Part shown: one piece after another, positions 7,605 through 27,390 of the stretch
Position numbering within the stretch: the first letter of the stretch is position 1
How the letters are laid out: every line of letters starts with the position of its first letter
Origin: Rhodobacterales bacterium RIFCSPHIGHO2_02_FULL_62_130
GTDB lineage: Bacteria; Pseudomonadota; Alphaproteobacteria; Rhodobacterales; Rhodobacteraceae
Direction of reading: 5' to 3'
DNA: 64,000 nt
Assembly (NCBI GenBank): GCA_001828855.1
Contig: MHZT01000048.1
Span: forward strand, 124,001-188,000
The notes under the pieces: generated by a model
Told to the model about the DNA's origin: nothing
What the model saw: the letters and a program-made list of their open reading frames with translations, nothing else
Databases searched by the model: none
Position numbers and translations under genes: made by a program

Positions 7605-7695
7605 CTGGGCGGGCAAATCCTTGTGACTGCCCCTAAATGTGAGGATCAGGCCGCTTTGTTCAAGCCTAAAGGCCGGAACGGCCGCGACAAACCGC

Positions 7696-8919
7696 CTATA
7701 CTTCGCGGCCAGCCGCGTTCTGGTCGATCAGATACCGCTGCGAAAGCGGGATCGCCGCCGCCCCCAAAGACCGCGCCTGCGCGCCCAAGGTGCCTTCACG
7801 GATCTGCGGCGGATCAATCCCGTCCAGCTCCAGCCGGTGCAAGGCGGCATGGGTGCGGCGGGTGATTTCGGCCCGCACTTCCACGGGCATCCAGCCGTCG
7901 ATCATCACCGCCTCGATCTCGATCAGCGCGGCGGCAGAGAACGCGGCCCAAGCCAGACCTTCGGCGGCGCTGTCCATCCATGCCGACAGCACGCCTTCGC
8001 TGACCGTCCAGTGATCGGGGCGCTCCCAGAGGTGATCCGAGGATTCGCCCGCTGCCTCCATCGCTTCGGCGAGTTTCGACATCGAGGCCGAGGCAAACAG
8101 CCGCCGCATCCGGCCATCCGGCCCCGGAACCGGCAAGGGACCAACCCCCGCCGCATTGCCGCTGCGGCCAAGGAAAACCTGCCCGTTCAGCACCAGCCCG
8201 CCACCGATGAAGTAGCCGAAGTAAAAATACAGAAAATCGCGCGGCTTTTCGCCCGTGCCGAACACCAGTTCCGCCCCGCAGGCCGAGGTTGCATCGTTCT
8301 GCACATAGACCGGCATCCCCGTCAGTGCGGCCAGTTCCGCCTGAATATCGCGGTCGCGCCATGCGTCCATCTCGGACTGCGGCGCGCCGATCAGTTGCAC
8401 CCAGCTCCACAACTGAAACGGCATCGCCACGCCCATGCCGCTGATCCGGTCGCGCGCGGCAGGCGGCAGGGTGGCCACCAGCTCTGGCCAGGCCCGCGCC
8501 ACAAAGGCCACCACCGCCCCCGGCGTCGGGTATTTGTAGACCATGCGCTCTGTGCCGCGCACCTGCCCCTGAAAATCCACCAAGGTCAGATCCGCCGACC
8601 GCCGCCCGATCTTCAGCCCCAGAAAGAACGCGCCTTCGGGGTTCAGATGCATCGGAATCGACGGCTGCCCGATCCGCCCGCGCACAGGTTCCCCGCGCAG
8701 CAGCAAGCCGTCCTGCTCCAGCGCCCGCATGATCACCGACACGGTTTGCGCCGACAGCCCTGTGATCCGCGCAATATCCGATTTCGCCAAGCCGTCATGC
8801 TGGCGCACCAGCGACAGCACCAGCCGTTCATTATGCGCCCGCATCCCCGACTGGTTCGATCCGCGCAGGCCAACGTCCTCTGCACTGCGGTCCGTCAAGA
8901 TTTCGGCGCCCAAGGGCAT
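7696..8919 (-). CDS. ROK family transcriptional repressor (FrcR-like)
   Basis: A 407-residue protein with an N-terminal winged helix-turn-helix (roughly residues 28-75, including GLAKSDIARITGLSAQTVSVIMRALE split around the turn) followed by a ROK sugar-kinase-like domain. The kinase region retains a NDATSACGAEL motif but is otherwise regulator-like. It lies divergent from the frcBCAK operon and just downstream of the mutarotase gene (9-bp gap). This is the position of the ROK regulator in rhizobial frc loci. It probably represses the transporter in the absence of sugar, through the palindrome at 9453-9473. Confidence 0.88.
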   Translation of the reverse strand: MPLGAEILTDRSAEDVGLRGSNQSGMRAHNERLVLSLVRQHDGLAKSDIARITGLSAQTVSVIMRALEQDGLLLRGEPVRGRIGQPSIPMHLNPEGAFFLGLKIGRRSADLTLVDFQGQVRGTERMVYKYPTPGAVVAFVARAWPELVATLPPAARDRISGMGVAMPFQLWSWVQLIGAPQSEMDAWRDRDIQAELAALTGMPVYVQNDATSACGAELVFGTGEKPRDFLYFYFGYFIGGGLVLNGQVFLGRSGNAAGVGPLPVPGPDGRMRRLFASASMSKLAEAMEAAGESSDHLWERPDHWTVSEGVLSAWMDSAAEGLAWAAFSAAALIEIEAVMIDGWMPVEVRAEITRRTHAALHRLELDGIDPPQIREGTLGAQARSLGAAAIPLSQRYLIDQNAAGREV

Positions 8920-8928
8920 GGTTGTTTC

Positions 8929-9354
8929 CTATTCGGTGGACGAGGGAGCCAAGGCCGCTTTGCGAAGGATCACATTCGCAAACAGCTCCGGCTCGGAGGT
9001 TGCGATAATGGCATAGGCCGAACGGATGCGCGGATACAACTGCTCTCCGGCCAAAGGCGTCAAGCTAAAGTCCTGCGCCGAGGTGTGACACAGATCATCC
9101 AGCGCCTGATGGATCACACCCCGCTGGGCCGGATCATTGTTCAACGACGCCCGAAACGCGGCTTCTACCGGAAAAATTTTCAGAATCGCCCGCAGCATCG
9201 GCATCAGGTGGATGCCGTCGGCGCGGATCAGGCGGCGCGCATGTTCCGCCGCCGGATAGTTGCCATCCACCAGCGCGATCTCGTCGCCATGCCCCATCGC
9301 GCGCAGCGTATGCAGCAAGTCTGGACCCAAAAGCGGGGAGATACCGATCAGCAT
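8929..9354 (-). CDS. RbsD/FucU family sugar mutarotase
   Basis: A 141-residue cytoplasmic protein that starts MLIGISPLLGPDLL and contains MGHGDEIALVDGNYPA, both hallmarks of the RbsD/FucU pyranose mutarotase family (His in GHGDE, Asp in VDGN). The start at 9354 was chosen because the family begins there; an upstream extension of 20 residues is unrelated. It is co-directional with the ROK repressor and divergent from the sugar ABC transporter. It therefore likely interconverts anomers of the imported sugar before phosphorylation. Confidence 0.9.
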   Translation of the reverse strand: MLIGISPLLGPDLLHTLRAMGHGDEIALVDGNYPAAEHARRLIRADGIHLMPMLRAILKIFPVEAAFRASLNNDPAQRGVIHQALDDLCHTSAQDFSLTPLAGEQLYPRIRSAYAIIATSEPELFANVILRKAALAPSSTE

Positions 9355-9452
9355 GGTGTGACGTGCCTTGTGTAAGCGAGGGCAGGGCGATTCCGCCCGC
9401 ACCCCCGATGTCATTTGCCACAGGTTGAAAGCGAAGCGGGGTCGCTGTCAAT

Positions 9453-9473
9453 AATAAATCACTCTGATTTATT
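9453..9473. promoter_or_regulatory. 21-bp palindrome, likely ROK operator in the frc divergent promoter
   Basis: AATAAATC-N5-GATTTATT is a perfect 8-bp inverted repeat in an AT-rich patch between the mutarotase/ROK gene pair and frcB. It lies five bases upstream of a TTGACG that could be the frcB -35 element (9478-9483). The position and symmetry suit an operator for the ROK repressor encoded next door; binding is inferred. Confidence 0.6.
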
Positions 9474-9586
9474 TATCTTGACGCAAAGGCCCGAATCAGG
9501 TTTTGTCTGCCACATCGCAAGGCTGAATGGCTGGGCGACACGCTTCGAATGGGGGAATAATCCCCTAAATCCTTGGGAGGAATACC

Positions 9587-10600
9587 ATGAAACTCAACGC
9601 GAAAGCCCTTTTGGGCGCGACGGCTCTTGCGCTGATCGCAGGCTCGGCTTCGGCTGCCGATCTGGCTTGCTTGATCACCAAGAACAACACCAACCCCTTC
9701 TTCGTGAAGATGAAAGAGGGTGCAGAGGCTGCTGCTGCCGCCGCTGGTCTGGACTTCCAAGCCTACGCTGGCGAAAAAGACGGCGACGCTGCCCCGCAGA
9801 TCACCGCGATTGAAAACTGCGTCGCTGCCGGTGCCAAGGGCATCCTGATCACCGCGTCGAACGACTCGGTCGGTCCGGCCCTGAAAGAAGCCCGCGCGGC
9901 TGGCATCCTTGTCATCGCTCTCGACACCCCGCTGGCGGATACCGAAGCACAGGACATGACCTTCGCGACCGACAACTTCGAAGCTGGTCTGCGTATCGGC
10001 AAATGGGCTGCTGCCAAACTGGGCGCCGAGGCTGCAAACGCCAAGATCGCCATGCTGGACATCAACAAGGACAATATCTCGGTTGACGTTGCCCGTGACA
10101 CCGGCTTCCTCGTCGGCTTCGGCATCGAAGTGCCGGATCTGGCTGTGATGGGTTCGGAAACCGATGCTCGCGTGATCGGCCACGAATCCTCGGACGCGAA
10201 CCCCGAAGGCGGTCTGCGCGCGATGGAAACCCTGCTGGCAAAAGACCCCGACATCAACGTGGTCTACACCATCAACGAACCGGCTGCTGAAGGTGCCTAT
10301 CAGGCGCTCAAGAACGCTGGCAAAGAAGGTCAGGCGATCATCGTTTCGGTTGACGGCGGCTGCCCCGGCATCGCTTCGGTCAAGTCGGGCGTGATCGGCG
10401 CCACCTCGCAGCAATACCCGCTGCTGATGGCATCCAAGGGCATCGAAGCCATCGCCACCTACGCAAAAGACGGCACCAAGCCGACCGCTTCGGAAGGTCT
10501 GTCCTTCTTCAACACCGGCGTGAACCTGATCACCGACCAGCCGGTTGATGGTGTCGAGTCGCTCGACAGCACCAAAGGCACCGAACTCTGCTGGGGCTGA
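9587..10600 (+). CDS. frcB: Sugar ABC transporter periplasmic binding protein (FrcB-like)
   Basis: A 337-residue type I periplasmic sugar-binding protein. It has a classic signal peptide cleaved near GSASA-ADLA (residue 23), followed by LACLITKNNTNPFF, typical of ribose/fructose/galactose binders. A strong GGGAGGA ribosome-binding site precedes the ATG. It is the first gene of an operon with a permease, an ABC ATPase and a sugar kinase in the order of rhizobial frcBCAK, which imports fructose, mannose and ribose. A hairpin follows it, probably limiting readthrough so that the binding protein is made in excess. Confidence 0.9.
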   Translation: MKLNAKALLGATALALIAGSASAADLACLITKNNTNPFFVKMKEGAEAAAAAAGLDFQAYAGEKDGDAAPQITAIENCVAAGAKGILITASNDSVGPALKEARAAGILVIALDTPLADTEAQDMTFATDNFEAGLRIGKWAAAKLGAEAANAKIAMLDINKDNISVDVARDTGFLVGFGIEVPDLAVMGSETDARVIGHESSDANPEGGLRAMETLLAKDPDINVVYTINEPAAEGAYQALKNAGKEGQAIIVSVDGGCPGIASVKSGVIGATSQQYPLLMASKGIEAIATYAKDGTKPTASEGLSFFNTGVNLITDQPVDGVESLDSTKGTELCWG

Positions 10601-10628
10601 TCCAGTCTTAGAACTGGCTTGATTAACG

Positions 10629-10656
10629 GAAGGGCGGCTTTACAGTCGCCCTTCTT
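10629..10656 (+). terminator. Hairpin between frcB and frcC (attenuator)
   Basis: GAAGGGCG (10629-10636) and CGCCCTTC (10647-10654) form a perfect 8-bp stem with a 10-nt loop, followed by TTCATA rather than a full T run. Its position right after the binding-protein gene fits partial termination or 3' mRNA protection. Confidence 0.7.
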
Positions 10657-10710
10657 CATAGGCGAAACCCCGAACGGGTTTCGGGATCATCACGGGGGGA
10701 TACCGAAGCG

Positions 10711-11790
10711 ATGAGCGCAGAAGACGCACCTACCAAAACAATTTCCGATTACGAGGCCACGCTGACCAAAGCTGACAAGGCGGTCGCGACCTTCGAAAAG
10801 GACGACAAAACCTTTGTCCATGTGCTGCGCGGCTATCTGCGTAACTATCCAACACTGATTCCGGCCCTTGTGCTGCTGGTGTCGGTTGCGGCCTTCAGCA
10901 TCATTGCGCCGCGGTTTCTGGGCATGGGGGCGCTGTCGACCGTTCTGAAGCAGGTCACGGTGACGGGCTTTGTCGCCTTGGCGCAAACGCTGATCATCCT
11001 GACCGCCGGTATCGATCTGTCGGTCGGCGCGATCCTTGTGGTCTGCTCGCTGATCATGGGCAATCTGGCGGTGATCTCGGGCCTGCCGGTGCTGCTGGCG
11101 GTGTTCATCGGCATCTTCTTCGGCGGGTTGATGGGCTTTGTGAACGGCGTGCTGGTCGCGCGGGTCAAACTGCCGCCCTTCATCGTGACGCTTGGCACCC
11201 TGTCGATCTTCAACGCGCTGAAGCTGTGGTATTCGCAGTCTGAATCCATCCGCAACGTCGACATTGAAGAGAAAGCCTCGGGCCTGCTGTGGTTCGGCAA
11301 GGGCTTCAACGTCGGCGGGGCCAGCCTGTCTTATGGCGGCATCACGCTGATCCTGCTGGCGGCGGTGCTGTGGTATGTGCTGAACCACACCGCTTGGGGC
11401 CGTCATGTCCATGCCATCGGCGATGATCCTGATGCGGCCATGCTGTCGGGCATCAAGGTCGACCGCACCCTGATTTCGGTTTACGCCGTTGCCGGTCTGA
11501 TCTGTGGCTTTGCGGCATGGATCGCCATCGGTCGCGTCGGTTCGGTCTCGCCCATCGCGTTCGATACGGTGAACCTTGGCTCTATCACCGCTGTGGTGAT
11601 CGGCGGCACCTCGCTGTTCGGCGGGCGCGGGTCGATCATCGGCTCGGTCCTTGGGGCCTTTATCGTGGGCGTGTTCAACACCGGCCTGTCGCTGGCGGGC
11701 GTTGACGACTACTGGCAGATGTTCGCGGCGGGCTGCCTTGTGATCATCGCTGTCGCACTTGACCAATGGCTGCGGAGGGCTTCGCAATGA
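10711..11790 (+). CDS. frcC: Sugar ABC transporter permease (FrcC-like)
   Basis: A 359-residue inner-membrane permease of the RbsC/AraH type. About 40 cytoplasmic N-terminal residues precede eight to ten helices. The family motif GIDLSVGAILV (near residue 110) and the EAA-like loop AIGDDPDAAMLSGIKVDRT are visible. The long charged N-terminal extension also occurs in rhizobial FrcC. The stop codon overlaps the start of the ATPase gene (ATGA), with a GGAGG-like site inside the end of this gene serving the next one. Confidence 0.9.
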   Translation: MSAEDAPTKTISDYEATLTKADKAVATFEKDDKTFVHVLRGYLRNYPTLIPALVLLVSVAAFSIIAPRFLGMGALSTVLKQVTVTGFVALAQTLIILTAGIDLSVGAILVVCSLIMGNLAVISGLPVLLAVFIGIFFGGLMGFVNGVLVARVKLPPFIVTLGTLSIFNALKLWYSQSESIRNVDIEEKASGLLWFGKGFNVGGASLSYGGITLILLAAVLWYVLNHTAWGRHVHAIGDDPDAAMLSGIKVDRTLISVYAVAGLICGFAAWIAIGRVGSVSPIAFDTVNLGSITAVVIGGTSLFGGRGSIIGSVLGAFIVGVFNTGLSLAGVDDYWQMFAAGCLVIIAVALDQWLRRASQ

Positions 11791-16842: not shown

Positions 16843-17382
16843 ATGTGGGTGCAGGCGCGCAACCGCTCGACGGGTGCGACCGAGACCATGGGCCTGTGGA
16901 CCGGCGAAGAGGACCGCGATTTCAGTATCGAGGGCGGAACGCGGACCTATCACGGGGCGGGCGCGCTTTTGGGGCTGGACCAGATCGTGATGCAGACCGG
17001 CCTGACGGTGCGGATGCAGCGGGTGTCGCTGGCGCCGATCGCGGCGGAAGTGGCGCAGATGCTGCGGGGCTACGACGCGGGCCTTGCCCCTGCCGAGATC
17101 CACCGCGCCCTGTTTGACCCGATGAGCGGCGATCTGATCGCGGAACCCAAACGCCTGTGGAAAGGCGTGATCGACACCGCCCCGATCCACACCGCCGAGA
17201 TCGGCGGGCAATCGACGGTGGATGTGGCACTGGCAAGTGCGGCGCGGGCGCTGACCAAAGGGCTGAGCCTGACCAAATCGGACGCGGTGCAGTCCTTGCG
17301 CGGCGGGGACCGGTTCCGCCGCTATCAGGATGTCACCGGCAAGGTGTCGACCGTCTGGGGCGAGAAGAAGGCAGGTCAATGA
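16843..17382 (+). pseudogene. Phage tail-tip protein, 5'-truncated
   Basis: The frame encodes a protein type I recognise from Rhodobacterales prophage tail modules. It carries ARNRSTGATETMGLWTG, a YHGAGALLGLD segment and an AARALTKGLSLTKSDA tail, and resembles DUF2163-like hub proteins in layout. The coding frame stays phage-like upstream of the ATG at 16843 (LSSRNGFVARGL) but hits a TAG at 16795-16797 without any start codon. The native start and about ten residues are therefore missing. The remaining 179 residues could still be made from the internal ATG. Function: likely tail-tip assembly. Confidence 0.65.
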
Positions 17383-17786
17383 TGCGGCATCCTGATTGGA
17401 AACTGCGCCTGATGCAGTATCTGGGCGAGGCCGCCCGCACCCCGTTCCAGCCGGGCCAGCATGACTGCGCGCTCTTTGCCGCAGGGGCGGTCGAGGCGAT
17501 GACCGGCATCGATTATGCCCGCCCGTTCAAGGGCCGTTATACGACCCTTAAAGGTGGGGTGCGGATGCTGCGCGAAGCGGGCTTTGCCGATCACATCGCC
17601 CTTGCCGCCGCATGGTTTCCCGAGATCGCACCCGCCTTTGCAGCCCCCGGCGATCTGGCCGTGATCGAGACGCCCGACGGTCCCGCCATGGGCGTGGTGC
17701 AGGGCGAAGGCGTCTATGTGCTGACCGTGGACCGGCTTGGCATCATGCCAATGCCGGGGGCCACCCGCGCCTTTCGGGTGATGTGA
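17379..17786 (+). CDS. Phage tail NlpC/P60-like protein (DUF6950 type)
   Basis: A 135-residue protein whose QHDCALFAAGAVEAMTG segment resembles the Cys-containing helix of NlpC/P60 peptidases found at the tail tip of siphophages. A GDLAVIETPDGPAMGVV stretch follows and would correspond to the His strand, though no His is obvious there. It overlaps the preceding gene (ATGA) and the following tail protein gene (TGATG). It probably assists tail-tip assembly or wall penetration; enzymatic activity is doubtful. Confidence 0.75.
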   Translation: MMRHPDWKLRLMQYLGEAARTPFQPGQHDCALFAAGAVEAMTGIDYARPFKGRYTTLKGGVRMLREAGFADHIALAAAWFPEIAPAFAAPGDLAVIETPDGPAMGVVQGEGVYVLTVDRLGIMPMPGATRAFRVM

Positions 17787-20125
17787 TGGTGCAGCTTGTC
17801 TCCCTGATCCTGACCGGCATTGCGGCGCTGCTGGCCTTTGCCGCACCCGCCCATGCGGGGCCGGTGTTTGTCGCCGCGCTCTCTGCCGGTGCAGGGGTGG
17901 GTGCCGCCTTTGCCGCCACCACGCTTGGCCATTTCCTGACGCAGACCTTGCTCGGGCGATTGCTTGGGGCTGTGGCGCTGTCGGCGCTGCAGGCCGCGCT
18001 GATGAAGCCTGCGACCCCCGGCATCACCACCGAAACCATCCGCTCCGGCGGCGTCAATCCATCGTCCTTCCTCCTTGGCCGCTATGCCACCGAAGGCGAC
18101 GAGGTCTGCCCGCCGATGACGCATGGCAAGGCGGACAAGACCCCGAACGCCTACCTGACCTATGTGATCAGTCTGGGCGACATCGCGGGCCAGACCCTGT
18201 CGCGGGTGATCATCGACGGGGAATACACGACCTTCACAGGGGCCGCCCATGCCGATTATGGCACCCCCGCGACGGGTCGCCTCGCAGGCTATGCCTGGAT
18301 CAAATACTATGACGGCACGCAAGTCGTGGCCGACCCGATGCTGCTGGCAAAATATGCAGGCTACCCGGAACGCCCGTGGCTCTCTGACATGGTCGGCACC
18401 GGCATCTGCTATGCGATCCTGACCTTCCGCTATAACCGCGAACTCTATCAAAGCTTCCCGCGCTGCCGCTTCGAGATCGACGGGATCAAGCTTTACGACC
18501 CGCGCAAGGATAGCACGGTGGGCGGGTCTGGCGCGCATCGCTGGGCGAATCCGGCGACATGGGAGCCGACCAACAACCCCGCCGTGATGGCCTATAACAT
18601 CAAGCGCGGCATCAGCCTGCCGGGCTTGGGCATCTGGGGCGGCGATGCGGCGGCTGCGGATCTGCCGCTGGCCAATTGGTTCACCGGCATGAACGAGGCC
18701 GATGTGGCCGAAGCTCTGGCTGCAGGCGGCACCGAGCCGCGCTATCGGGCGGGCTATGAGGTGACGGTCGACAAGGAACCGGCGGCGGTGATCGAGGATC
18801 TGCTGCGGGCCTGTCTGGGGCAGGTGGCCGAGGTCGGGGGCCAGTGGAAGCTGCGCGTGGGCGGGGCGGGCCTGCCGGTGATGTTTGTCACCGACGACGA
18901 CATCATCGTGACCAAGCCGCAGGATTACGAACCCTTTCCGGCCTCGGACCAGCGCTTCAATGGCATCGATGCGCGCTTTCCCGACCCCGGCACCGGCTGG
19001 GAGCCGAAGGCCGCTCCGCCCCGCTACAATGCGACATGGGAGGCCGAGGACGGCAACAAGCGCCGCGTCGCCAGCCTCGATCTGCCTGCCTGCCCCTATC
19101 CCGATCAGGTGCAGCGGGTGATGAAGGGCTATATCGCCGATGACCGCCGGTTCCGCCGCCACAACCTGACGCTGCCGCCCGATGCCGCGATCCTTGAGCC
19201 GCTGGACACGATCAGCTGGACCTCTGCGCGCAACGGCTACACGTCGAAGCTGTTCGACGTCACGGAAGTGCAGGATGATGTGCGGACGCTGCTGCAAGGC
19301 GTTGCCCTGCGCGAAGTCGACCCGACCGACGCCAGCTGGTCCACCGCACTGGAACTGCCCTATTCGACCGCGTCGAGCATTGCGGTCCCGCTCACCAGCC
19401 AGACCGTCGAGTCCTTCGATCTGCAGGCCCATACCATCACGGATGCGGGCGCGCTCGACCGCCGCCCGGCCCTGAAGCTGCTGTGGAACGGGGCAGAGCA
19501 GGATGGCGTGACGGCCATCGAATACGAAGTGCGGGTGGCAGCAACGGCGGTTGTCGTCAAGCGCGGCGCGATCACTGACGTGGGCGCAGGCGCGTTGATC
19601 CTTGCCGAAGGGATACTGCCCTCCACCGCCTATGAGGCGCGGATGCGCCCCGTGGTGGCGGGACCGGTGGCTTGGACGGCATGGGACGTTGCGACAACGG
19701 GGGCGGTGCAACTGGGCCAGATCGATCTGGACGGGTCGGTGGTCAAGGCGGTTCTCGTCGGTCCGGTCGATATTCCCACGACGGTTGGCTACGTGTTTCT
19801 GAGCATGTCGACCGGCCCAATCTCGCCGCATCACCTGTGGCGCTCCGGTCTTTCTGCCGAGGTCAGGAAGAACGGCGGCGGCCCCGGCGATGCGATCCTT
19901 GCCTTCGAGCAGCGCTACAAGTTTGCCGGGGTATGGTCGGCGTGGGTGCAAAAGGGGACCGTGACAGTCACTGCGGTCGCTTGGGACGTCGATGGCATCT
20001 CGTCAGGCTTCGCGGGCCAATACGAGGATGTCGAGTTCCGTCTGTCGGTGGTGTCAAACGCAGGCACCCGCGTTCAGAGCCTTCGCAATGTCTACATGAC
20101 AGCCGTCAACGTGGTGAAATCATGA
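17786..20125 (+). CDS. Phage tail tip attachment protein (gpJ-like)
   Basis: A 779-residue central tail-fibre or host-specificity protein. The N-terminal 70 residues are hydrophobic and Ala-rich, with a helix ending PAHAGP. The middle carries gpJ-like features: VIIDGEYTTF, a FRYNRELYQSFPRCRFEIDG block, GISLPGLGIWGG and NWFTGMNEADVAEAL. C-terminal fibronectin-like beta regions are suggested by WTAWDVATTG. It is shorter than lambda gpJ (1132 residues). The frame is intact, which suggests recent decay or selection on this module. Its neighbours are all tail genes in tight overlaps. Confidence 0.82.
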   Translation: MVQLVSLILTGIAALLAFAAPAHAGPVFVAALSAGAGVGAAFAATTLGHFLTQTLLGRLLGAVALSALQAALMKPATPGITTETIRSGGVNPSSFLLGRYATEGDEVCPPMTHGKADKTPNAYLTYVISLGDIAGQTLSRVIIDGEYTTFTGAAHADYGTPATGRLAGYAWIKYYDGTQVVADPMLLAKYAGYPERPWLSDMVGTGICYAILTFRYNRELYQSFPRCRFEIDGIKLYDPRKDSTVGGSGAHRWANPATWEPTNNPAVMAYNIKRGISLPGLGIWGGDAAAADLPLANWFTGMNEADVAEALAAGGTEPRYRAGYEVTVDKEPAAVIEDLLRACLGQVAEVGGQWKLRVGGAGLPVMFVTDDDIIVTKPQDYEPFPASDQRFNGIDARFPDPGTGWEPKAAPPRYNATWEAEDGNKRRVASLDLPACPYPDQVQRVMKGYIADDRRFRRHNLTLPPDAAILEPLDTISWTSARNGYTSKLFDVTEVQDDVRTLLQGVALREVDPTDASWSTALELPYSTASSIAVPLTSQTVESFDLQAHTITDAGALDRRPALKLLWNGAEQDGVTAIEYEVRVAATAVVVKRGAITDVGAGALILAEGILPSTAYEARMRPVVAGPVAWTAWDVATTGAVQLGQIDLDGSVVKAVLVGPVDIPTTVGYVFLSMSTGPISPHHLWRSGLSAEVRKNGGGPGDAILAFEQRYKFAGVWSAWVQKGTVTVTAVAWDVDGISSGFAGQYEDVEFRLSVVSNAGTRVQSLRNVYMTAVNVVKS

Positions 20126-20508
20126 CAGCACTCTATGCCAAAATGGATGACAGCGGGGTCTATCCGGTCGAGTTGCGGTCCAGCCCGCTGGAAGGCTGGC
20201 TGGCGCTGCCTGCCGGAACGGCGGCAGAAGTGGCGATTGCGATGATGCTGGCGGATGGCGCATGGGTCGCGCGGCCTGCCATTGCCGCCCCGACCGTCAC
20301 GCGCAGCGCGGAAGGCTGGGTGATCGAATTTGCCGCGCCCGATGGTGCCGTGTGTGATGTGGTCGACCCCTATCTGGGCTGGCTGGGCAGTGCCGATGCC
20401 TCGGCAGGCGCGCTGGCCTTCGTGCTGGCCGAGGCTGGCCGCTACCAGCTCGAGGTCACGGCCCCGCGCCCATGGCTCGGGCGCACTGACAATCTGGTGC
20501 TGGCATGA
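20122..20508 (+). CDS. Small phage tail-associated protein
   Basis: A 128-residue protein without a recognised domain. It starts with MTALYAKMDDSGVYPV and ends in a beta-rich stretch (AGRYQLEVTAPRPWLG) that resembles a phage structural domain. The ATG overlaps the gpJ-like gene stop (ATGA) and its own stop overlaps the next gene the same way, so it belongs to the tail operon. Function unknown. Confidence 0.7.
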   Translation: MTALYAKMDDSGVYPVELRSSPLEGWLALPAGTAAEVAIAMMLADGAWVARPAIAAPTVTRSAEGWVIEFAAPDGAVCDVVDPYLGWLGSADASAGALAFVLAEAGRYQLEVTAPRPWLGRTDNLVLA

Positions 20509-20720
20509 AGGTGATCCGCCGCCCCGCTTGTGCCTCCCGCGCCTTCGCCCGTGCCGAAGCCGAGGCCGCCCGCGCCCCGATCCGCGAGGCCCGCCGTGCC
20601 GCCTTCGCCGCCGAGGCCGATCCGCTGGCCTTCAAACTGCTGCGCGGCGAGGCGACCCAAGCCGAATACGCCGCCTGCGTCGCCGCGATCCGCGCCCGTT
20701 ATCCATATCCAGAGGAGTAA
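20505..20720 (+). CDS. Small Ala/Arg-rich phage protein
   Basis: A 71-residue, mostly helical protein rich in Ala, Arg and Glu. It overlaps the preceding gene by ATGA and is followed six bases later by the fibre gene. I recognise no family. Small proteins of this size commonly sit between tail-tip and fibre genes in Rhodobacterales prophages. Confidence 0.6.
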   Translation: MKVIRRPACASRAFARAEAEAARAPIREARRAAFAAEADPLAFKLLRGEATQAEYAACVAAIRARYPYPEE

Positions 20721-20726
20721 GACACG

Positions 20727-22028
20727 ATGGTCGACACTTGCACCGTCAGCTGGACCGCCCGCGATTTCCAGTTCGTGACACTCGCCGCCGCGCGACTGGT
20801 GTTCATCCCGCGTGATGCCCTGTCCCTCGCCGGGGCGGTGGGCGTCCTCTATGTGCCTGCGCGGGCCGAGGCGACATCGGACGGGTCGGGTGCCGGGTCC
20901 ATCGCGCTGGTGCCGGGCTATTACATCCTGCATGTCATCACGGCGGATGGCACGGCCACGGCAGGCATCGCGGTGCCGAACGCGGCGACGGCGGAGATCG
21001 GTGCCTGCATCGACCAGACCCTCGATCTGCCCGCGCTGTCAGAGTTTCAGGCGCTGGTGGTTGCCGCCGAAGCCGCAGCGGATGCGGCGGCGGCCTCGGC
21101 GCTGGCGGCGGCCACCTTTGATCCCGTGCTCTATCTGGCAAAATCCGGCAACCTTTCGGGTCTGCTGAACACGACCACGGCCCTGACCAATCTGGGCGCA
21201 ACGGCAACGGGGGCCAGCCTGTTCACCGCAGCAACTGCGGCAGCGGCCCGCACGACGCTTGGCGCAACCGCCGTGGGGGATGCTGTGTTCACCGCCGCCA
21301 GCACGGCTGCGGCGCAAACCGCGATCGGGGCCAGTGTGGTTGGCAAAGCGCTGATGGTGGCGGTTGACGCGGCGGCGGGGCGCACGGCCATTGCTGCCGC
21401 GCCCTTGGCCTCGCCCGCATTTACGGGGGTGGTGTCGGTTGCCTCAGGGTCGGCTGCTCTGCCGTCTCTCACCTTCTCGGCTGACCTTGATACGGGGTTC
21501 TGGAACCCTGCGAACAACCTGCTTGGCGTGGCCATCAACGGGGTGGAGCGGGCGCGGTTTGACGGGAACTACCTGCGCCTCGCCGCTGGTGGCATCCAGT
21601 TCAACGGCGATACCGCCGATGCGAACAGCCTTGATGACTACGAGGAAGGGTCGTTCACCCCGACGATCTCGGGGGCCGGTGTCAGTGGTGCTGGCACCTA
21701 TACGCTGCAGACGGGCCGCTATGTCAAAGTCGGCAAAGTCGTGACGATCTGGGGCGCGGTCACGATCACCGCCCACACAGGCTCGGGCCAGATGATCATC
21801 GGCGGCTTGCCGTTCACGACCGCCAACGTCGCCAACATGAAGACCGTCGCCAGCATCCTGTACCTGAGCCTGACCGTTCCGGCCTCGTCCTTTGCCGTCG
21901 GCTTCATCGGCCCGAATGAGAGCTGGATTTCCATGAACTCACTGGCAACCGCTGCGACAGGCTATGTTTCCCTGTCAATCGATGCAGCCTGCACCCTGAA
22001 CTTCACCGCCACATACGAGGCCGCATGA
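20727..22028 (+). CDS. Phage tail fibre protein
   Basis: A 433-residue fibre-like protein. Residues 1-110 form a beta-rich head. Residues 110-245 are Ala/Thr-rich, with imperfect 25-residue repeats of the type LGATAxGxxxFTAAxxAAA, consistent with a trimeric shaft. The C-terminus begins with DYEEGSFTPTISG, a motif common at the tips of phage fibres, and continues with GRYVKVGKVVTIWG. A GAGGAG site lies upstream of the ATG. It would determine host binding. Confidence 0.8.
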   Translation: MVDTCTVSWTARDFQFVTLAAARLVFIPRDALSLAGAVGVLYVPARAEATSDGSGAGSIALVPGYYILHVITADGTATAGIAVPNAATAEIGACIDQTLDLPALSEFQALVVAAEAAADAAAASALAAATFDPVLYLAKSGNLSGLLNTTTALTNLGATATGASLFTAATAAAARTTLGATAVGDAVFTAASTAAAQTAIGASVVGKALMVAVDAAAGRTAIAAAPLASPAFTGVVSVASGSAALPSLTFSADLDTGFWNPANNLLGVAINGVERARFDGNYLRLAAGGIQFNGDTADANSLDDYEEGSFTPTISGAGVSGAGTYTLQTGRYVKVGKVVTIWGAVTITAHTGSGQMIIGGLPFTTANVANMKTVASILYLSLTVPASSFAVGFIGPNESWISMNSLATAATGYVSLSIDAACTLNFTATYEAA

Positions 22029-22489
22029 TGCTGAAAATTGAAGTTGTAGAAAACGGAACGGTGATGATCCGCGAGACGATTGACGGCCGATTTCACCGCC
22101 GCACCATCCTGCCGGGTGATGATTATTCGGGCGAACAGGGTGCAGTGTTTGCCGCCTGCGAAAAGGCCCATACGCCCGAGGTCATAGCGGCCTTTCTGGA
22201 CAGCCGGATGGTGCGCCAGCCGTCGCCCGAAGAGCAGCTTGCCGCATGGCGGGCAGGGGCCAAGTGCAGCCGCCTTCAGGGGCGTCTGACGCTGGGGGCA
22301 GAGGTCTGCGCGGCACTGGATGCCATGGCCGCAGATCCCGCGACGCCTTGGGCCATGCGCGAGACCATCACGGGGGCCATCGAATGGCGGCGGTCCAGCC
22401 AGACCATTGACGAGCTAGGCTATCTGCTGGGATATGACGCCCCCCGGATGGACGCGCTGTTCGAGGCCGCCATGCAGGTTGCGGTCTGA
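22025..22489 (+). CDS. Phage protein following the tail fibre
   Basis: A 154-residue protein with no domain I can name. It contains a polar start (MMLKIEVVENGTVMIRETIDG) and a helical C-terminal half (EVCAALDAMAA, TIDELGYLLGYDAPRMDALF). Overlap with the fibre gene (ATGA) suggests a fibre chaperone or assembly factor by position only. A double hairpin follows six bases after its stop. Confidence 0.6.
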   Translation: MMLKIEVVENGTVMIRETIDGRFHRRTILPGDDYSGEQGAVFAACEKAHTPEVIAAFLDSRMVRQPSPEEQLAAWRAGAKCSRLQGRLTLGAEVCAALDAMAADPATPWAMRETITGAIEWRRSSQTIDELGYLLGYDAPRMDALFEAAMQVAV

Positions 22490-22635: not shown

Positions 22636-23448
22636 ATGAACATCAGCTTAACGGCAGACCAGAAAGCCCGCCCCGTCGCCCCTTGGCTGGGCGGCAAACG
22701 CAACCTTGCAAAGCGCATCTGCGCCCTCATCGATGCCGATGACCACCGCACCTATGCCGAGCCTTTCGTGGGCATGGGCGGGATCTTCCTGCGCCGGTCG
22801 CAGCGCGCGCAGGCCGAGTTCATCAACGACCGGGGCCGCGACGTCTACAACCTCTTCCGGGTGATTCAGGAACACTACGTGGCCTTCCTCGATCTCTTGC
22901 GCTTCCAGATCACCACGCAGGCGAATTTCAACCGGCTGTTCGGCGTCGATCCCGAAACCCTGACCGACATGCAGCGCGCCGCGCGCTTCCTTTACCTGCA
23001 GCGGCTGGCCTTCGGCGGCAAGGTCTCGGGGCGCAACTTCGGCCTCGCCAACGACCGGCCCGCGCGGTTCAACCTGACCACGCTGGAGCCTGATCTGGAG
23101 GCGCTGCACAGCCGGTTGTCGGGGGTGACCATCATGTGCCTCGACTTCGCCGAGTTCATCCGCCGGGTGGATGGGCCAAGGGCGCTCTTCTACCTCGACC
23201 CGCCCTATTGGGGCTGCGAGAACGACTACGGCAAAGCCCTGTTCAGCCGTGACCGCTTCGAGGAACTGGCGACCTCGCTGGGGTCGTTAAAGGGGCGTTT
23301 TATCCTGTCTTTAAACGACGTCCCCGGTGTGCGCGAAACCTTCAAGGGCTTCCGGTTCCAAGAGGTGAAAACCACCTACACCATCGCCGGAAAAGGCGCG
23401 CAGCCCGAACGGGCCGAAGTGCTGATCTCGAACTATGATCTCGGGTGA
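22636..23448 (+). CDS. D12-class DNA adenine N6-methyltransferase
   Basis: A 270-residue Dam-like enzyme. It has the AdoMet-binding motif AEPFVGMGGIFLRR near residue 40, the catalytic DPPYWG motif (IV) near residue 192, and the PWLGGKRNLAKRI N-terminal motif. Phages use such methylases to protect their DNA from host nucleases; the target site cannot be read from the sequence. The upstream region lacks a good Shine-Dalgarno. Its GC content matches the tail genes and differs from the two AT-richer genes that follow. Confidence 0.9.
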   Translation: MNISLTADQKARPVAPWLGGKRNLAKRICALIDADDHRTYAEPFVGMGGIFLRRSQRAQAEFINDRGRDVYNLFRVIQEHYVAFLDLLRFQITTQANFNRLFGVDPETLTDMQRAARFLYLQRLAFGGKVSGRNFGLANDRPARFNLTTLEPDLEALHSRLSGVTIMCLDFAEFIRRVDGPRALFYLDPPYWGCENDYGKALFSRDRFEELATSLGSLKGRFILSLNDVPGVRETFKGFRFQEVKTTYTIAGKGAQPERAEVLISNYDLG

Positions 23449-23600
23449 AGGAAGGGGCCGGATCGGTGACGGTACGGCCTCTGCCATGCCTTCGTGGCTG
23501 ACTGCAGGCTACACGGTTCCTTTTTGCGGGGAATGCAAGAATCGTTGCCTGAATTCCTTGGGCGAACAATCTTGGGTAGAAAGTTGCAACGGGAGTAAGC

Positions 23601-24605
23601 ATGAGTAAGACAAGTTCAGTCCAGTATCGCCACTTGAAGACAGAAAATCTCGGCACAAAGTCTGATCTAAAGTCTCTGATAGTTGAGGCGCTTCTGCGAT
23701 CGCAGGCAGATGGACGGAGTCTTTCTCAGAGTGCGAAATTGCGGAAAATCGATCTCGATCAGGATGGTAGTGTAGTAATTCTCAACAAGATTTCTGATCC
23801 CAGTAGTTGGGTAGGCCCGGTGTTCGCCGGGCAACTCATACAGCTCGAACTGGGAACACTTCTACCCGCTGTTACCCAATCCCTTGATGATGACACAGAT
23901 GAGTTCTTGCTCGAAAATCTACAACTTGGAGAGCAGACACAGATCCTCAAGGGAGCGATGTATTTTGCGATTGTTGGTAACCACGTCGCTCTAATCGAGG
24001 GGCAAAGCGTAAAGAGTCGTACGCTGGAGCGCTATCTGACGAGAATTTTGCAGGATGCTGCTCGACTAGAGGCAGGGACGCCCGTGATCCTGACAGCAAA
24101 GTTCGCAAGCGGAGATGGAAAGGCTCTCGAGGCACCTACAGAGGTTACAGTTCGAGCTGCGCCGGTGAAAGCTTCATCCCAAGATGGCGCGCAAGGGATT
24201 CATGAGATTGTCGAACGGGAGGCCGCAAGGGCAAAAGAAGCAGGTCATACCGTTTTTGACGTTTTGGCTACCTTAGGCTGGGATAGAACGGCGATAGAAA
24301 GGCTCAAGAAAGACATTCCTTCGGGTGGATGGATCGAGGGGTTCTTCAAGGTCGTAATCAAGGCAAATCGGGCAAAGAGACCAATTTCGAGAGCTACAAT
24401 CGAGGAGGCGCTCCGTAACATTGACCCGGCAGATCTTGGCCTACGGGGCGAGGGTTCCGAGAAGAACGGTATTGTGAAACTGTCAACGCCGCGATCTGTC
24501 AAAACAAAGGGGCAGCTTCTGGACCCAACAGATGCTATGTTGCAGATAGTGGAAGCCCTTAAGGAATGGGCGTCATCTGGGAAGATCGATTGCAAATTTG
24601 GTTGA
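23601..24605 (+). CDS. RexA-like phage-exclusion sensor protein (putative)
   Basis: A 334-residue soluble protein with no signal or TM segment, preceded by GGGAG at good spacing. By eye it follows lambda RexA (279 residues) over most of its length: an N-terminal leucine-rich start, a MYFAIVGNHVALIEG strand pair, GTPVILTAKF, then VFDVLATLG, KVVIKANRAKRPIS and ADLGLRGEG. Each has a RexA counterpart in the same order. It overlaps a four-TM gene, as expected for rexB. Base composition is clearly lower in GC than its neighbours, a sign of transfer. Assignment rests on remembered RexA sequence, so homology is inferred. Confidence 0.6.
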   Translation: MSKTSSVQYRHLKTENLGTKSDLKSLIVEALLRSQADGRSLSQSAKLRKIDLDQDGSVVILNKISDPSSWVGPVFAGQLIQLELGTLLPAVTQSLDDDTDEFLLENLQLGEQTQILKGAMYFAIVGNHVALIEGQSVKSRTLERYLTRILQDAARLEAGTPVILTAKFASGDGKALEAPTEVTVRAAPVKASSQDGAQGIHEIVEREAARAKEAGHTVFDVLATLGWDRTAIERLKKDIPSGGWIEGFFKVVIKANRAKRPISRATIEEALRNIDPADLGLRGEGSEKNGIVKLSTPRSVKTKGQLLDPTDAMLQIVEALKEWASSGKIDCKFG

Positions 24606-25195
24606 GATCATGGCCGGTGTTTTGCTTGGCGGGGAGCCTCGTGTCCCTTCTGCCGAGTGGCATTTTGGCCGGTGATATCGGTAGGATCGTCACAACTTTT
24701 CTTGGACTGCTTGCCGCCAGCATACTTCCGACGATCTCTTTGATCGTTGGCTCGATGTCGGCTACGGGTCGATCGGTCAAGGGCATCAACGAATTGCACG
24801 ATGAATTTGTTCACTTAGTCGGGGAACTGTTCTCTGTGCTTGGATGGACCATGGTCGCAATCGTCGGTCTGGCTGTCGCCTCCGCTGACATCAATTATCA
24901 GTTTGGAACGTACGAGCCGTTTGGAATTCTCTTCGATTTCAGTTCGCTTCCAGACGTGCTGAAAGGTGCTGGGCAATTCGCTGTGGGATATGCTTCGGCA
25001 GCTGCTTTGGCTCAGTTTTCATTGGTGCCAAAATCCATTTTGAAGGCGCTGGAGCTTCGGCATCATATAGCAGTCGACGAAGCGCGACGTAAGATTTCTG
25101 AAAACGTCCCATCTGCCGATGGCATCCAGAAGATCTTCGGAGCAAAGCAGGGCTTTGGTGAAGTTAAACCCGTATCGATAGTCGAAAAGCTTTAG
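24566..25195 (+). CDS. RexB-like four-TM membrane protein (putative)
   Basis: A 209-residue membrane protein with helices at about residues 17-37, 41-63, 89-108 and 136-155 and a hydrophilic 50-residue C-terminus. The second helix and following loop (VTTFLGLLAASILPTISLIVGS) resemble the corresponding segment of lambda RexB, a 144-residue, four-TM ion channel that depolarises infected cells. The ATG at 24566 overlaps the RexA-like gene by 40 bp; TTG codons at 24590 or 24602 are alternative starts. The pair is probably one functional unit. The C-terminal extension is not present in lambda RexB. Confidence 0.58.
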   Translation: MGVIWEDRLQIWLRSWPVFCLAGSLVSLLPSGILAGDIGRIVTTFLGLLAASILPTISLIVGSMSATGRSVKGINELHDEFVHLVGELFSVLGWTMVAIVGLAVASADINYQFGTYEPFGILFDFSSLPDVLKGAGQFAVGYASAAALAQFSLVPKSILKALELRHHIAVDEARRKISENVPSADGIQKIFGAKQGFGEVKPVSIVEKL

Positions 25196-25315
25196 TCCTT
25201 AGGTTGGCTAACCTGATTGGGTTTACCTAGACCTTCGCCTTGCCCCTTTAGCAGGTGCTTTTGGTGGGGAATCTTGCTGTGCTACATTCGCGGAAATCAG
25301 CAAGGATCACCCTGC

Positions 25316-25540
25316 ATGACCACCTTACACGAAGTGTTGAACCTGCTACTTGTTACCATCGCCGTTCTGGCCGCTGGCTATCTTGGCTACAGGCTTGGCC
25401 GCAGCAGCGAGGATGAAGGGCGTGGCGCAGTCGATGTCATCATCCGTGGCTGCCAACAGCCTTCCGCTCCGCCCGCGAACGCTATCCCAGTGCAACCGCC
25501 ATCCGGTTTCGGATCGGAGAAGCCGATCCACAAGGCTTAG
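25316..25540 (+). CDS. Small single-TM protein
   Basis: A 74-residue protein with an N-terminal helix (LLLVTIAVLAAGYLGYRLG, about residues 9-27) and a polar, Pro-rich cytoplasmic or periplasmic tail. An AAGGA precedes the ATG. No family recognised. It could be the last gene of the phage remnant (for instance a spanin-like or accessory protein) or a host gene. Confidence 0.5.
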   Translation: MTTLHEVLNLLLVTIAVLAAGYLGYRLGRSSEDEGRGAVDVIIRGCQQPSAPPANAIPVQPPSGFGSEKPIHKA

Positions 25541-25967
25541 TACACTGATGCGCCGTGCATCCGCACTTCGGTTTCGCTGAGATTGGGGTGCGGGTCCCGG
25601 CTTGTGTTGACACGTCGCGATAGGCTGAAATCCGAAGTCCAACCGTCGACTAGCCCGCAGCACGTCTTAAGCATGCAGCACCAAGGCCCCGGCGCACCCG
25701 CAATAGTACCGTAACACTGTCCCGTTTCCTTGCAAGCCGCCAAATGCTGTCTGCTGCAAACTCTGCTGTCAAACTCTGCCAACTCTGGTGGCGAGCCACA
25801 CACACCACACTTGTCCACAGAAGATTTACCCAGAAAACACTTTACAGGCTTCCCCCACAGGCACACTATATTTAGTAAGGGAGGCGTCGGGCAGACGCTG
25901 ATCCTTGCCAGACACCCAGTCTCTTGTGGGTCGCGGCCCGCCTGAGGCTTTATAGTGAGGCCGGGGA
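25541..25967. other. 427-bp region without a supported gene
   Basis: Between the small membrane protein and the YbjN gene I see no convincing coding frame, tRNA or attachment repeat. It contains short AAACTCTG-type repeats around 25758-25790. A TATAGT at 25951-25956 could be part of the YbjN promoter. A minus-strand frame here is cysteine-rich but has no ribosome-binding site or similarity. This may hold the lost right end of the prophage. Confidence 0.5.
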
Positions 25968-26471
25968 ATGTCGCTTTCTGAAGATTTTATGTCAACGGAT
26001 GATCTGCATCCCATCGACATCGTCGAAACCTTGGCCGCCCATCATGATTGGGAGTTTGACCGCGTTACCGACGATCAGATTGCCATGGCTGTCGAAGGTC
26101 AGTGGCGCACCTATTCCCTCACTTTGGCGTGGTCTGCACAGGACGAAACCCTGCGGCTGATCTGCACCTTCGAAATGGAGCCGCCTTCCGACAAGCTGGG
26201 CGATCTCTATGATGTGCTGAACCGCTGCAATGACATGGTCTGGACCGGCGCTTTCACCTATTGGTCCGAGCAAAAGCTGATGGTCTGGCGCTATGGCCTG
26301 TGCCTTGCGGGCGGGCAGACGGCGGGGCCAGAGCAGATCGACCGGCTGATTTCCAGCGCGGTAATGGCGGCCGAACGGTTCTATCCGGCGTTCCAGATGG
26401 TGGCTTGGGCCAATAAAACCCCCGCCGAAGCGATGAATGTCGCTATTGCCGAGGCTTATGGCCGCGCCTGA
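25968..26471 (+). CDS. YbjN domain-containing protein
   Basis: A 167-residue cytoplasmic protein of the alphaproteobacterial YbjN family (type III secretion chaperone-like fold). It is recognised by DLHPIDIVETLAAHHDWEFDR at the N-terminus and the central LYDVLNRCNDMVWTGAFTYW and FQMVAWANKTPAEAM segments. A GAGG site precedes the ATG at 25968; an internal ATG at 25989 is an alternative. It lies upstream of proC in the same direction. Function uncharacterised, possibly chaperone-like. Confidence 0.88.
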   Translation: MSLSEDFMSTDDLHPIDIVETLAAHHDWEFDRVTDDQIAMAVEGQWRTYSLTLAWSAQDETLRLICTFEMEPPSDKLGDLYDVLNRCNDMVWTGAFTYWSEQKLMVWRYGLCLAGGQTAGPEQIDRLISSAVMAAERFYPAFQMVAWANKTPAEAMNVAIAEAYGRA

Positions 26472-26577
26472 GGCGGGCCGCTGATCTTGCCCCTGCAAAT
26501 TCGCCGGCAGCTTGGGGCGAATATCAATTCAAAAGCAATGCGATCCGCTTTAACCTGCCGTAAAACCGGAGGTTCGA

Positions 26578-27390
26578 ATGACGCTTGATGGGGTGGCCCG
26601 TGATGGGCTGGTGCTGCTGGGTTGCGGCAAGATGGGAACCGCGCTGCTGACCGGGTGGCTGGCGGCAGGGGTTCCGCCCGCTTCGGTCTGGGTGATCGAG
26701 CCGCAACCGACCGATTGGCTGCGCGCCAGCGGTGTGCATCTGAACGAAGGCATTCCGCCTGCGCCCGCCGTGGCGCTGCTGGCGGTCAAACCGCAGATGA
26801 TGGGGGCGGCGCTGCCCGCGCTGCAGGCTTTGGGCAACGGGAAAACGCTGTTTGTGTCGATTGCCGCCGGCACCTCGATTGCGACGTTTGAACAGGCGCT
26901 GGGCGACCGCACCCCGATCGTCCGCACCATGCCGAACACCCCCGCTATGGTTGGGCGCGGCATCACCGGCATCTGCGCCAATGCCCATGCCGGGGCCGAA
27001 GGTCTGGCCTTGGCCGCTGCCTTGATGCAGGCCGTCGGGCAGGTGGTTGAACTGGAGGGCGAGCATCAGATCGACGCCGTGACCGCCGTTTCCGGCTCTG
27101 GCCCCGCCTATGTCTTCCACCTGATCGAGGCGATGGCCGCAGGCGGCGTGGCGCAAGGCCTGTCGCCCGAAGTCGCCATGCAACTGGCCCGCGCCACGGT
27201 CTGCGGGGCAGGGGAGTTGGCCCATCAATCCCCGGACACGGCATCGCAACTGCGGATAAACGTCACCTCGCCCGGTGGCACCACTGCTGCGGCGCTTTCC
27301 GTTCTGATGGAAGCAGAAACCGGCCTGCCCCCCCTGATGGCACGCGCGATCAAAGCCGCCGCCGACCGCGGGCGGGAGCTTGGCGCATGA
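26578..27390 (+). CDS. proC: Pyrroline-5-carboxylate reductase
   Basis: A 270-residue enzyme for the last step of proline synthesis. It has the Rossmann motif LLGCGKMGTAL at the N-terminus, NTPAMVGRGITGI in the middle, and the family signature TAVSGSGPAYVFHLIEAM followed by GLSPEVAMQLA. A GGAGG lies upstream of the ATG. The stop overlaps the csaA start (ATGA). The order YbjN-proC-csaA is common in Rhodobacterales. Confidence 0.95.
   Translation: MTLDGVARDGLVLLGCGKMGTALLTGWLAAGVPPASVWVIEPQPTDWLRASGVHLNEGIPPAPAVALLAVKPQMMGAALPALQALGNGKTLFVSIAAGTSIATFEQALGDRTPIVRTMPNTPAMVGRGITGICANAHAGAEGLALAAALMQAVGQVVELEGEHQIDAVTAVSGSGPAYVFHLIEAMAAGGVAQGLSPEVAMQLARATVCGAGELAHQSPDTASQLRINVTSPGGTTAAALSVLMEAETGLPPLMARAIKAAADRGRELGA

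Follow-up and report, generated by a model that had tools for sequence, protein, structure and literature searches.

Two overlapping genes at the right edge of a broken prophage from Rhodobacterales bacterium RIFCSPHIGHO2_02_FULL_62_130 are predicted to form a RexAB-type prophage exclusion (abortive-infection) module, a reading to which we give a probability of roughly 0.7. The genes were analyzed within a stretch of 64,000 nucleotides, here called the window. We favor this reading because lambda RexA is the best fold match of the first protein, the two genes are paired almost obligately, relatives occupy the rexAB slot of other phages, the spread is scattered and both genes are intact; purifying selection in Paracoccus pairs, and a size and layout like those of RexABpp from Pseudomonas putida, point the same way. 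Against it count the lack of significant sequence homology to RexA and of any RexB homology for gene 2, Foldseek E-values that are not below 0.001, TM-scores of about 0.3, the non-conservation of RexA residues R219/K221 and a simple search that found no cI-type repressor by the pair in the branch to which the window belongs. The pair likely works like RexAB, and damage to the cell membrane is probably how it blocks other phages; it fails the profile tests for membership in the Pfam families RexA and RexB.

The gene pair and its prophage remnant

The features referred to below are listed here with their positions in the window and the basis of each assignment.

16843..22489, + strand: prophage tail-region remnant with a shortened tail protein, a phrog_2134 protein, a J-like tail fiber, a second fiber-like protein and small ORFs (PHROG matches)
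22636..23448, + strand: D12-class adenine methyltransferase, the upstream neighbor (PF02086, E 2.2e-26; phrog_56)
23601..24605, + strand: gene 1, RexA-like soluble protein of 334 aa, ATG start (intact ORF; full-length phrog_3482 match; lambda RexA, 8twq_B, first in the PDB fold search)
23601..24095, + strand: gene 1 residues 1-165, N-terminal domain rich in beta structure and modeled better than the remainder (model secondary structure and pLDDT; order as in the globular part of RexA)
24243..24509, + strand: gene 1 residues 215-303, presumed equivalent of the dimerization domain, with the three blocks initially lined up with RexA (BLAST and hhalign register with RexA)
24525..24575, + strand: gene 1 residues 309-325, C-terminal helix (AlphaFold2 model)
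24566..24605, + strand: overlap of genes 1 and 2, 40 nt (ORF coordinates)
24566..25195, + strand: gene 2, membrane protein of 209 aa, ATG start, presumed RexB-like effector (ORF; AlphaFold2 model; adjacency to gene 1 in relatives)
24674..24814, + strand: gene 2 residues 37-83, helix 2 and the subsequent loop (conservation on alignment A2)

The initial annotation described two overlapping, AT-richer genes for proteins of 334 and 209 residues behind a phage methylase, and the coordinates, the base composition (51.0% G+C for the pair vs 62.8% for the window) and the PF02086 match confirm this description. When segments of the pair's length are slid along the window in steps of 50, 1 of 1249 is as AT-rich as the pair itself, and the lowest G+C outside the pair is 57.4%. 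Both genes are co-directional and free of internal stops, the first encodes a protein with a calculated mass of 36.2 kDa, and the source genome holds a single copy of the pair. A promoter and terminator scan at the pair gave results at chance level.

The pair sits at the right edge of a prophage remnant of about 9 kb, delimited in this way because the phage genes are flanked by host-type genes on both sides. On the left, the tail genes are preceded by an adenine deaminase gene and ordinary transport and antiporter genes; on the right, the pair is followed by ybjN (PF10722) and then by a gene that reads, from its sequence, as proC. The shortened tail protein covers only positions 203-363 of the 390-position phrog_2048, and the J-like tail fiber matches phrog_5616 with an E-value of 2e-178. 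None of the ORFs tested around the pair is a head, replication, repressor or integrase gene, in agreement with the earlier view of a phage that has largely been lost, and no convincing direct repeats were found as attachment sites. Two small proteins also lie nearby: one of 154 aa (22025-22489), between the second fiber-like gene and the methyltransferase, with weak matches to phrog_6034 and phrog_6228 (both of unknown function), and one encoded by a 75-aa ORF after gene 2 (25313-25540), with a hydrophobic start and no Pfam match.

The same gene order is seen at positions 22636-27390 of the window and at 7084-11358 of a locus from Defluviimonas salinarum (L002): methyltransferase (69% identity), gene 1 (67%), gene 2 (41%), ybjN (77%) and a proC-like gene with a pyrroline-5-carboxylate reductase domain. 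The two pairs look as though they occupy the same site. Upstream, the Defluviimonas locus has a Phage_GPD tail hub, and the tail proteins of the window find no match there. Possibly, one site has been visited by different phages bearing the same cargo, and the methyltransferase and the gene pair may be kept or carried as a unit.

Relatives, pairing and genomic position

One scan of genome contigs returned 13 close loci with gene 1 at 42-67% identity, six from Paracoccus and one each from Defluviimonas, Sphingobium, Brevundimonas, Devosia, Sphingopyxis, Aliiroseovarius and Novosphingobium; gene 2 adjoins gene 1 in all 13. For a wider set, Acinetobacter and Shigella members served as further queries and were followed by an alignment search. 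The resulting collection of 221 loci consists of 200 with gene 1 (duplicates included), 19 lambda-type RexA or other control loci and 2 matches that run into a contig end (L025, L101). Because the 200 loci count the window repeatedly and some contigs twice, clusters were counted instead. At 80% identity there are 45, among them the window's own and three that are remote and low-scoring (L121-L123, the first with a partial gene 1).

Directly behind gene 1 lies a membrane-protein gene in 45/45 clusters when the best locus of each is taken, in 44/45 when the representatives are taken and in 190 of all 200 loci. When the other genes of these loci that encode 250 aa or more are held to a similar criterion, 2 of 175 have such a neighbor. 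In the clusters, the partner gene encodes 160-209 aa with 3-4 hydrophobic spans, and its start lies at -80 to +23 nt relative to where gene 1 stops. As for the 10 loci without a partner, eight have fewer than 500 bases downstream, one has a shortened gene 2 (L016) and one has gene 1 in pieces (L098). The shortened copy, in Shigella phage SfIV (3501-4324 of L016), has an annotated length of 108 aa and stops next to the gene for an IS1 transposase; its relatives have about 170 aa, and it looks interrupted. The co-occurrence that the initial annotation proposed as a check holds up where tried, as the genes were not found apart: across 295 family genomes, the gene 2 model has matches in 2, each time next to gene 1.

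The module is rare and scattered across genomes. With the genome of the window included, gene 1 is present in 3/295 genomes of the family and 3/385 of the class, and phrog_3482 has a match in 10/398 genomes of the phylum. One family genome (G235) carries a divergent gene 1 whose membrane partner is beyond the reach of the gene 2 model. Among 5426 complete E. coli genomes, this gene 1 (LF82-type) is found in 42 and lambda-type rexA in 99. The Rex system that the initial annotation proposed for Rhodobacterales is not peculiar to that order; gammaproteobacterial phages carry the module too. A restriction to Rhodobacterales is rejected, given relatives in other alphaproteobacteria and in Acinetobacter, Shigella and E. 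coli phages. Compared with the Acinetobacter/Shigella phage branch, gene 1 of the window is 18-22% identical and gene 2 10-17%.

The close Paracoccus pairs are under purifying selection, with dN/dS values of 0.10 and 0.26 in gene 1 and of 0.20 in gene 2; the gene 2 value of L010/L011, calculated out of frame, is not counted. For the copy in the window, dS is saturated in the comparison with the nearest relative, which leaves selection on this copy unmeasurable. This saturation and the broken state of the surrounding prophage would fit a decaying leftover without present function, an idea to which we give hardly any credence: both frames are open at full length, the overlap is kept and, in the comparison with Defluviimonas, pN is well below pS.

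In Acinetobacter phages, the pair lies behind cI on the same strand, with one small gene in between. In E. coli phage Perceval and the prophage of E. coli LF82, it likewise lies behind cI on the same strand and is followed by kil, gam and bet; the LF82 repressor is annotated as an XRE-family regulator. Comparison with the lambda locus identifies this position behind cI as that of rexAB. The LF82 pair (L229, 3001-4551), in the lambda rexAB slot, bears the RefSeq name hypothetical. LF82 is the one genome in which the slot of the E. coli copy was inspected, and natural E. coli variants would make Rex infection sensing, an old question, directly testable. Together with lambda RexA as the top PDB fold and the pairing in 45/45 clusters vs 2/175 control genes, the slot supports the proposal, already made in the initial annotation, of a RexAB-like exclusion module.

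Across the clusters, a cI-type repressor is located within 250 bp upstream in 7/45 and at 1.1 kb in an eighth, according to a simple search from five repressors in which 33/45 clusters had >1.5 kb of upstream DNA. Six of these eight repressors were checked by Pfam, and all six have an S24 domain; the remaining two are labeled CI by their records. In the branch of the window, this simple search gave no cI-type repressor in the vicinity of the pair. Neighbors in that branch include integrases (L010, L019, L021), P2-like tail genes (L012) and a tape-measure gene (L003). Since L005 has host-type genes to the left of the pair and several other tested neighbors in the branch matched nothing, a prophage location is established for only part of the copies.

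These positions bear on two other roles. In the first, protein 1 would tune the cI/Cro decision between lysogeny and lysis, and exclusion would be a by-product or absent. RexA is reported to bind DNA and to bias the switch of lambda (PMC11077077), and several relatives of the pair adjoin cI; yet the repressor region of the window is gone while the pair is intact, and the simple search gave no cI-type repressor by the pair in the branch, which makes such a switch improbable. In the second, protein 2 would be holin-like and protein 1 its regulator, within a lysis cassette. The position of the pair after tail genes in the window would suit this role, as would the annotation of protein 2 of Acinetobacter phage Ab1656-2 as holin-x and an NCBIfam CidB/LrgB match of the window protein that is far below threshold (E 0.0088, 15.9 bits vs a cut-off of 267). 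SfIV, however, where the pair lies between the lysis genes and Q, encodes a holin, a lysin and spanins of its own beside the pair, on the other strand, and in Perceval and LF82 the pair stands between cI and kil, away from the late genes. On the strength of the SfIV lysis genes and the Perceval position we reject the lysis role as very improbable.

Beyond the close relatives, the membrane partners of distant gene 1 relatives (L115, L116, L121-L123, L028) look mutually unrelated by eye, as if one sensor were paired with several effectors. A viral scan found no relatives of L123, and tblastn with L122 over phages gave no match. The pair probably belongs to a lineage for which we found no name in the literature, within a broad unannotated family; a search that fell short of most subscription papers turned up no publication naming phrog_3482 or an alphaproteobacterial RexAB. 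The 45 clusters would represent a candidate further RexAB-like type, mostly named hypothetical in the records. More tentatively, and at somewhat under even odds, phrog_3482 and its membrane partners could make up an extensive superfamily of RexAB-type guards that has gone unannotated. A single lineage of RdgC-fold DNA-clamp sensors would then be combined with several unrelated membrane effectors; the superfamily would take the place of rexAB in lambdoid phages of E. coli and in Acinetobacter phages and would reach alphaproteobacteria as prophage-edge cargo. If so, the rexAB genes of lambda itself would represent one branch among others of a strategy general to prophages.

Comparison of the two proteins with RexA and RexB

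Protein 1 matches phrog_3482, a family of unknown function, over its full length (E 9.1e-17, residues 2-329 on 6-342 of 344). Pfam assigns it to no family at E-values up to 5, and PF15969 (RexA) is not matched; lambda RexA itself scores 326.8 bits against that model. Over 398 genomes, PF15969 matched nothing, controls included, and is therefore uninformative at that scale. No Pfam or NCBIfam model names the gene pair, and PADLOC, run without a lambda Rex positive control, gave no match to it.

Short blocks resembling RexA and RexB had initially been lined up by eye. For protein 1, their order holds in BLAST, where residues 168-309 align with RexA 118-242 (E 0.34 for a one-sequence database), but taken by itself the resemblance is close to chance: against RexA, shuffled versions of protein 1 score at least as high in 35 of 500 cases, and against RexB, shuffled versions of protein 2 do so in 15 of 500. 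As proof of Rex homology, the by-eye match is rejected, since shuffles score as well.

Profile-profile tests of protein 1 against RexA conflict. With hhalign, a 30-row alignment (A3) places positions 172-316 on RexA 122-255 (P 0.005, probability 7%) and beats 150/150 column-shuffled controls. A 42-row alignment falls short of the average for its shuffled controls, with the TVFDVLATLG block in the same register; 14 rows give P 0.069 and the other branch P 0.7. In the BLAST alignment, RexA D215 is paired with D278 of protein 1, a residue that is nearly invariant in the family. RexA R219 and K221, whose double mutation is reported to abolish DNA binding (PMC11077077), align in the same register with a variable site and a glutamate in the protein 1 family.

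The AlphaFold2 model of protein 1 was built from 30 sequences and has a mean pLDDT of 66.6. Residues 1-165 and 309-325 are mostly good, and about a third of the chain is poor (169-216 and 239-291, the latter with pLDDT <50). When the model is searched with Foldseek against 350,542 PDB chains, lambda RexA is the first hit (8twq_B, E 0.018, probability 0.93), kinetochore chains occupy ranks 2-4 and a second RexA chain (8twq_A) is at rank 6; there is no match at E <0.001, and TM-scores are 0.27-0.31. The order of structural parts in the model is that of RexA, which is described as grouping structurally with RdgC, IML3 and CHL4 (PMC11077077). This is suggestive of a RexA/RdgC-type fold for protein 1 without being conclusive. 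Foldseek had been named as a check on the Rex assignment: RexA comes top for protein 1, with an E-value that falls short of the level usually taken as certain, and the model of protein 2 has no informative neighbor in a viral structure library. In that library, the sole match of protein 1 at <0.001 is an uncharacterized phage protein. Searches of PDB sequences with protein 1 and with alignment A1 gave no match, and alignment A7 gave one irrelevant match at E 0.54.

The model of protein 2 is better determined (mean pLDDT 83), with helices at 2-27, 37-64, 71-106, 125-151 and 153-179. We read the first four as membrane-spanning and the fifth as a C-terminal helix. The four transmembrane helices noted initially are thus present as hydrophobic helices in the model, while a hydropathy count gives 3 spans for this protein and 3-4 for its relatives. 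On alignment A2, conservation is highest in helix 2 (0.80), followed by the subsequent loop and the C-terminal helix at 0.62 each. In Sbash gp31, two substitutions in the matching loop are reported to abolish defense (PMC6426596).

Neither sequence nor fold shows protein 2 to be a member of the RexB family. PF15968 (RexB) has no match in it, hhalign against RexB gives P 0.55 and 0.24 with no homology seen, PHROG has no match, and the best hit of alignment A2 among PDB sequences is irrelevant (E 0.037).

Tested precedents and a possible mechanism

PMC12894663 counts only five RexAB-like systems described up to January 2026. The closest tested precedent is RexABpp (PP_5643/PP_5644) from prophage P1 of Pseudomonas putida, reported to defend its host. 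We liken it to the window pair by its description, not by sequence. As described in PMC12894663, it too is prophage-borne and has a soluble protein of about the same size (37.5 kDa when tagged) whose best structural relative is lambda RexA, together with a four-TM partner lacking detectable RexB homology. Both systems share an asymmetry, a soluble protein whose best structural match is RexA beside an unrecognizable four-TM partner. According to the same source, two genes separate RexABpp from a cI-like repressor upstream of it, whereas the window pair has no repressor left. When RexBpp was sought among the gene-pair loci by seven published residue positions, none had six or more and the best had four.

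The mechanism we propose is drawn from lambda, Sbash, CarolAnn and, above all, RexABpp. The lysogen would make both proteins from one coupled transcript. Protein 1, with its presumed RexA/RdgC-type fold, would dimerize as a clamp on DNA and sense something made during infection by another phage. It would then activate protein 2, a predicted four-helix inner-membrane protein, which would breach the membrane; growth would stop and the infection would fail. In P. putida, overexpression of RexA is reported to be toxic only with RexB, dye entry and some beta-galactosidase leakage are described in a minority of cells, and the two-hybrid assay and HHpred are said to have shown no RexA-RexB binding and no recognition of RexB, respectively (PMC12894663). 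The same account of this closest tested system mentions no depolarization seen, so the depolarization of the cell attributed to the pair in the initial annotation is not settled.

The roles could also be distributed as in mycobacteriophage Butters, whose gp30/gp31 are likewise a soluble and a four-TM protein (PMC7542560; PMC12894663): protein 1 would be the antiviral effector, and protein 2 a membrane anchor that keeps it inactive until infection. Protein 1 is the better conserved partner (68% mean column identity on A1 vs 55% for protein 2 on A2), which speaks for this arrangement. Lambda, Sbash, CarolAnn and RexABpp are all described with the opposite roles, a sensor that acts on a membrane effector (PMC12894663), and we consider the Butters arrangement unlikely for this pair.

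The RexAB-type reading also draws on likenesses to other pairs. Lambda RexA and RexB (PF15969/PF15968) are two genes in the same order, again for a soluble and a four-TM protein, but of 279 and 144 aa; the window pair differs further in that its genes overlap, are not beside cI and lack significant sequence homology to those of lambda. In Acinetobacter and Shigella phages, phrog_3482 with phrog_4510 or phrog_16807 partners follows the gene order of the window, whose gene 2, unlike those partners, has no PHROG. Sbash gp30/gp31 and CarolAnn gp44/gp43 are described as soluble and four-TM pairs (PMC6426596, PMC6426606). A tblastn search with CarolAnn gp44 over phages found Gordonia and Mycobacterium phages only, and none of the family of gene 1. 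The genes of both pairs overlap, as in the window (41 nt in Sbash and 26 nt in CarolAnn), and the Sbash pair also lies away from the repressor; a position beside cI is thus not strictly defining.
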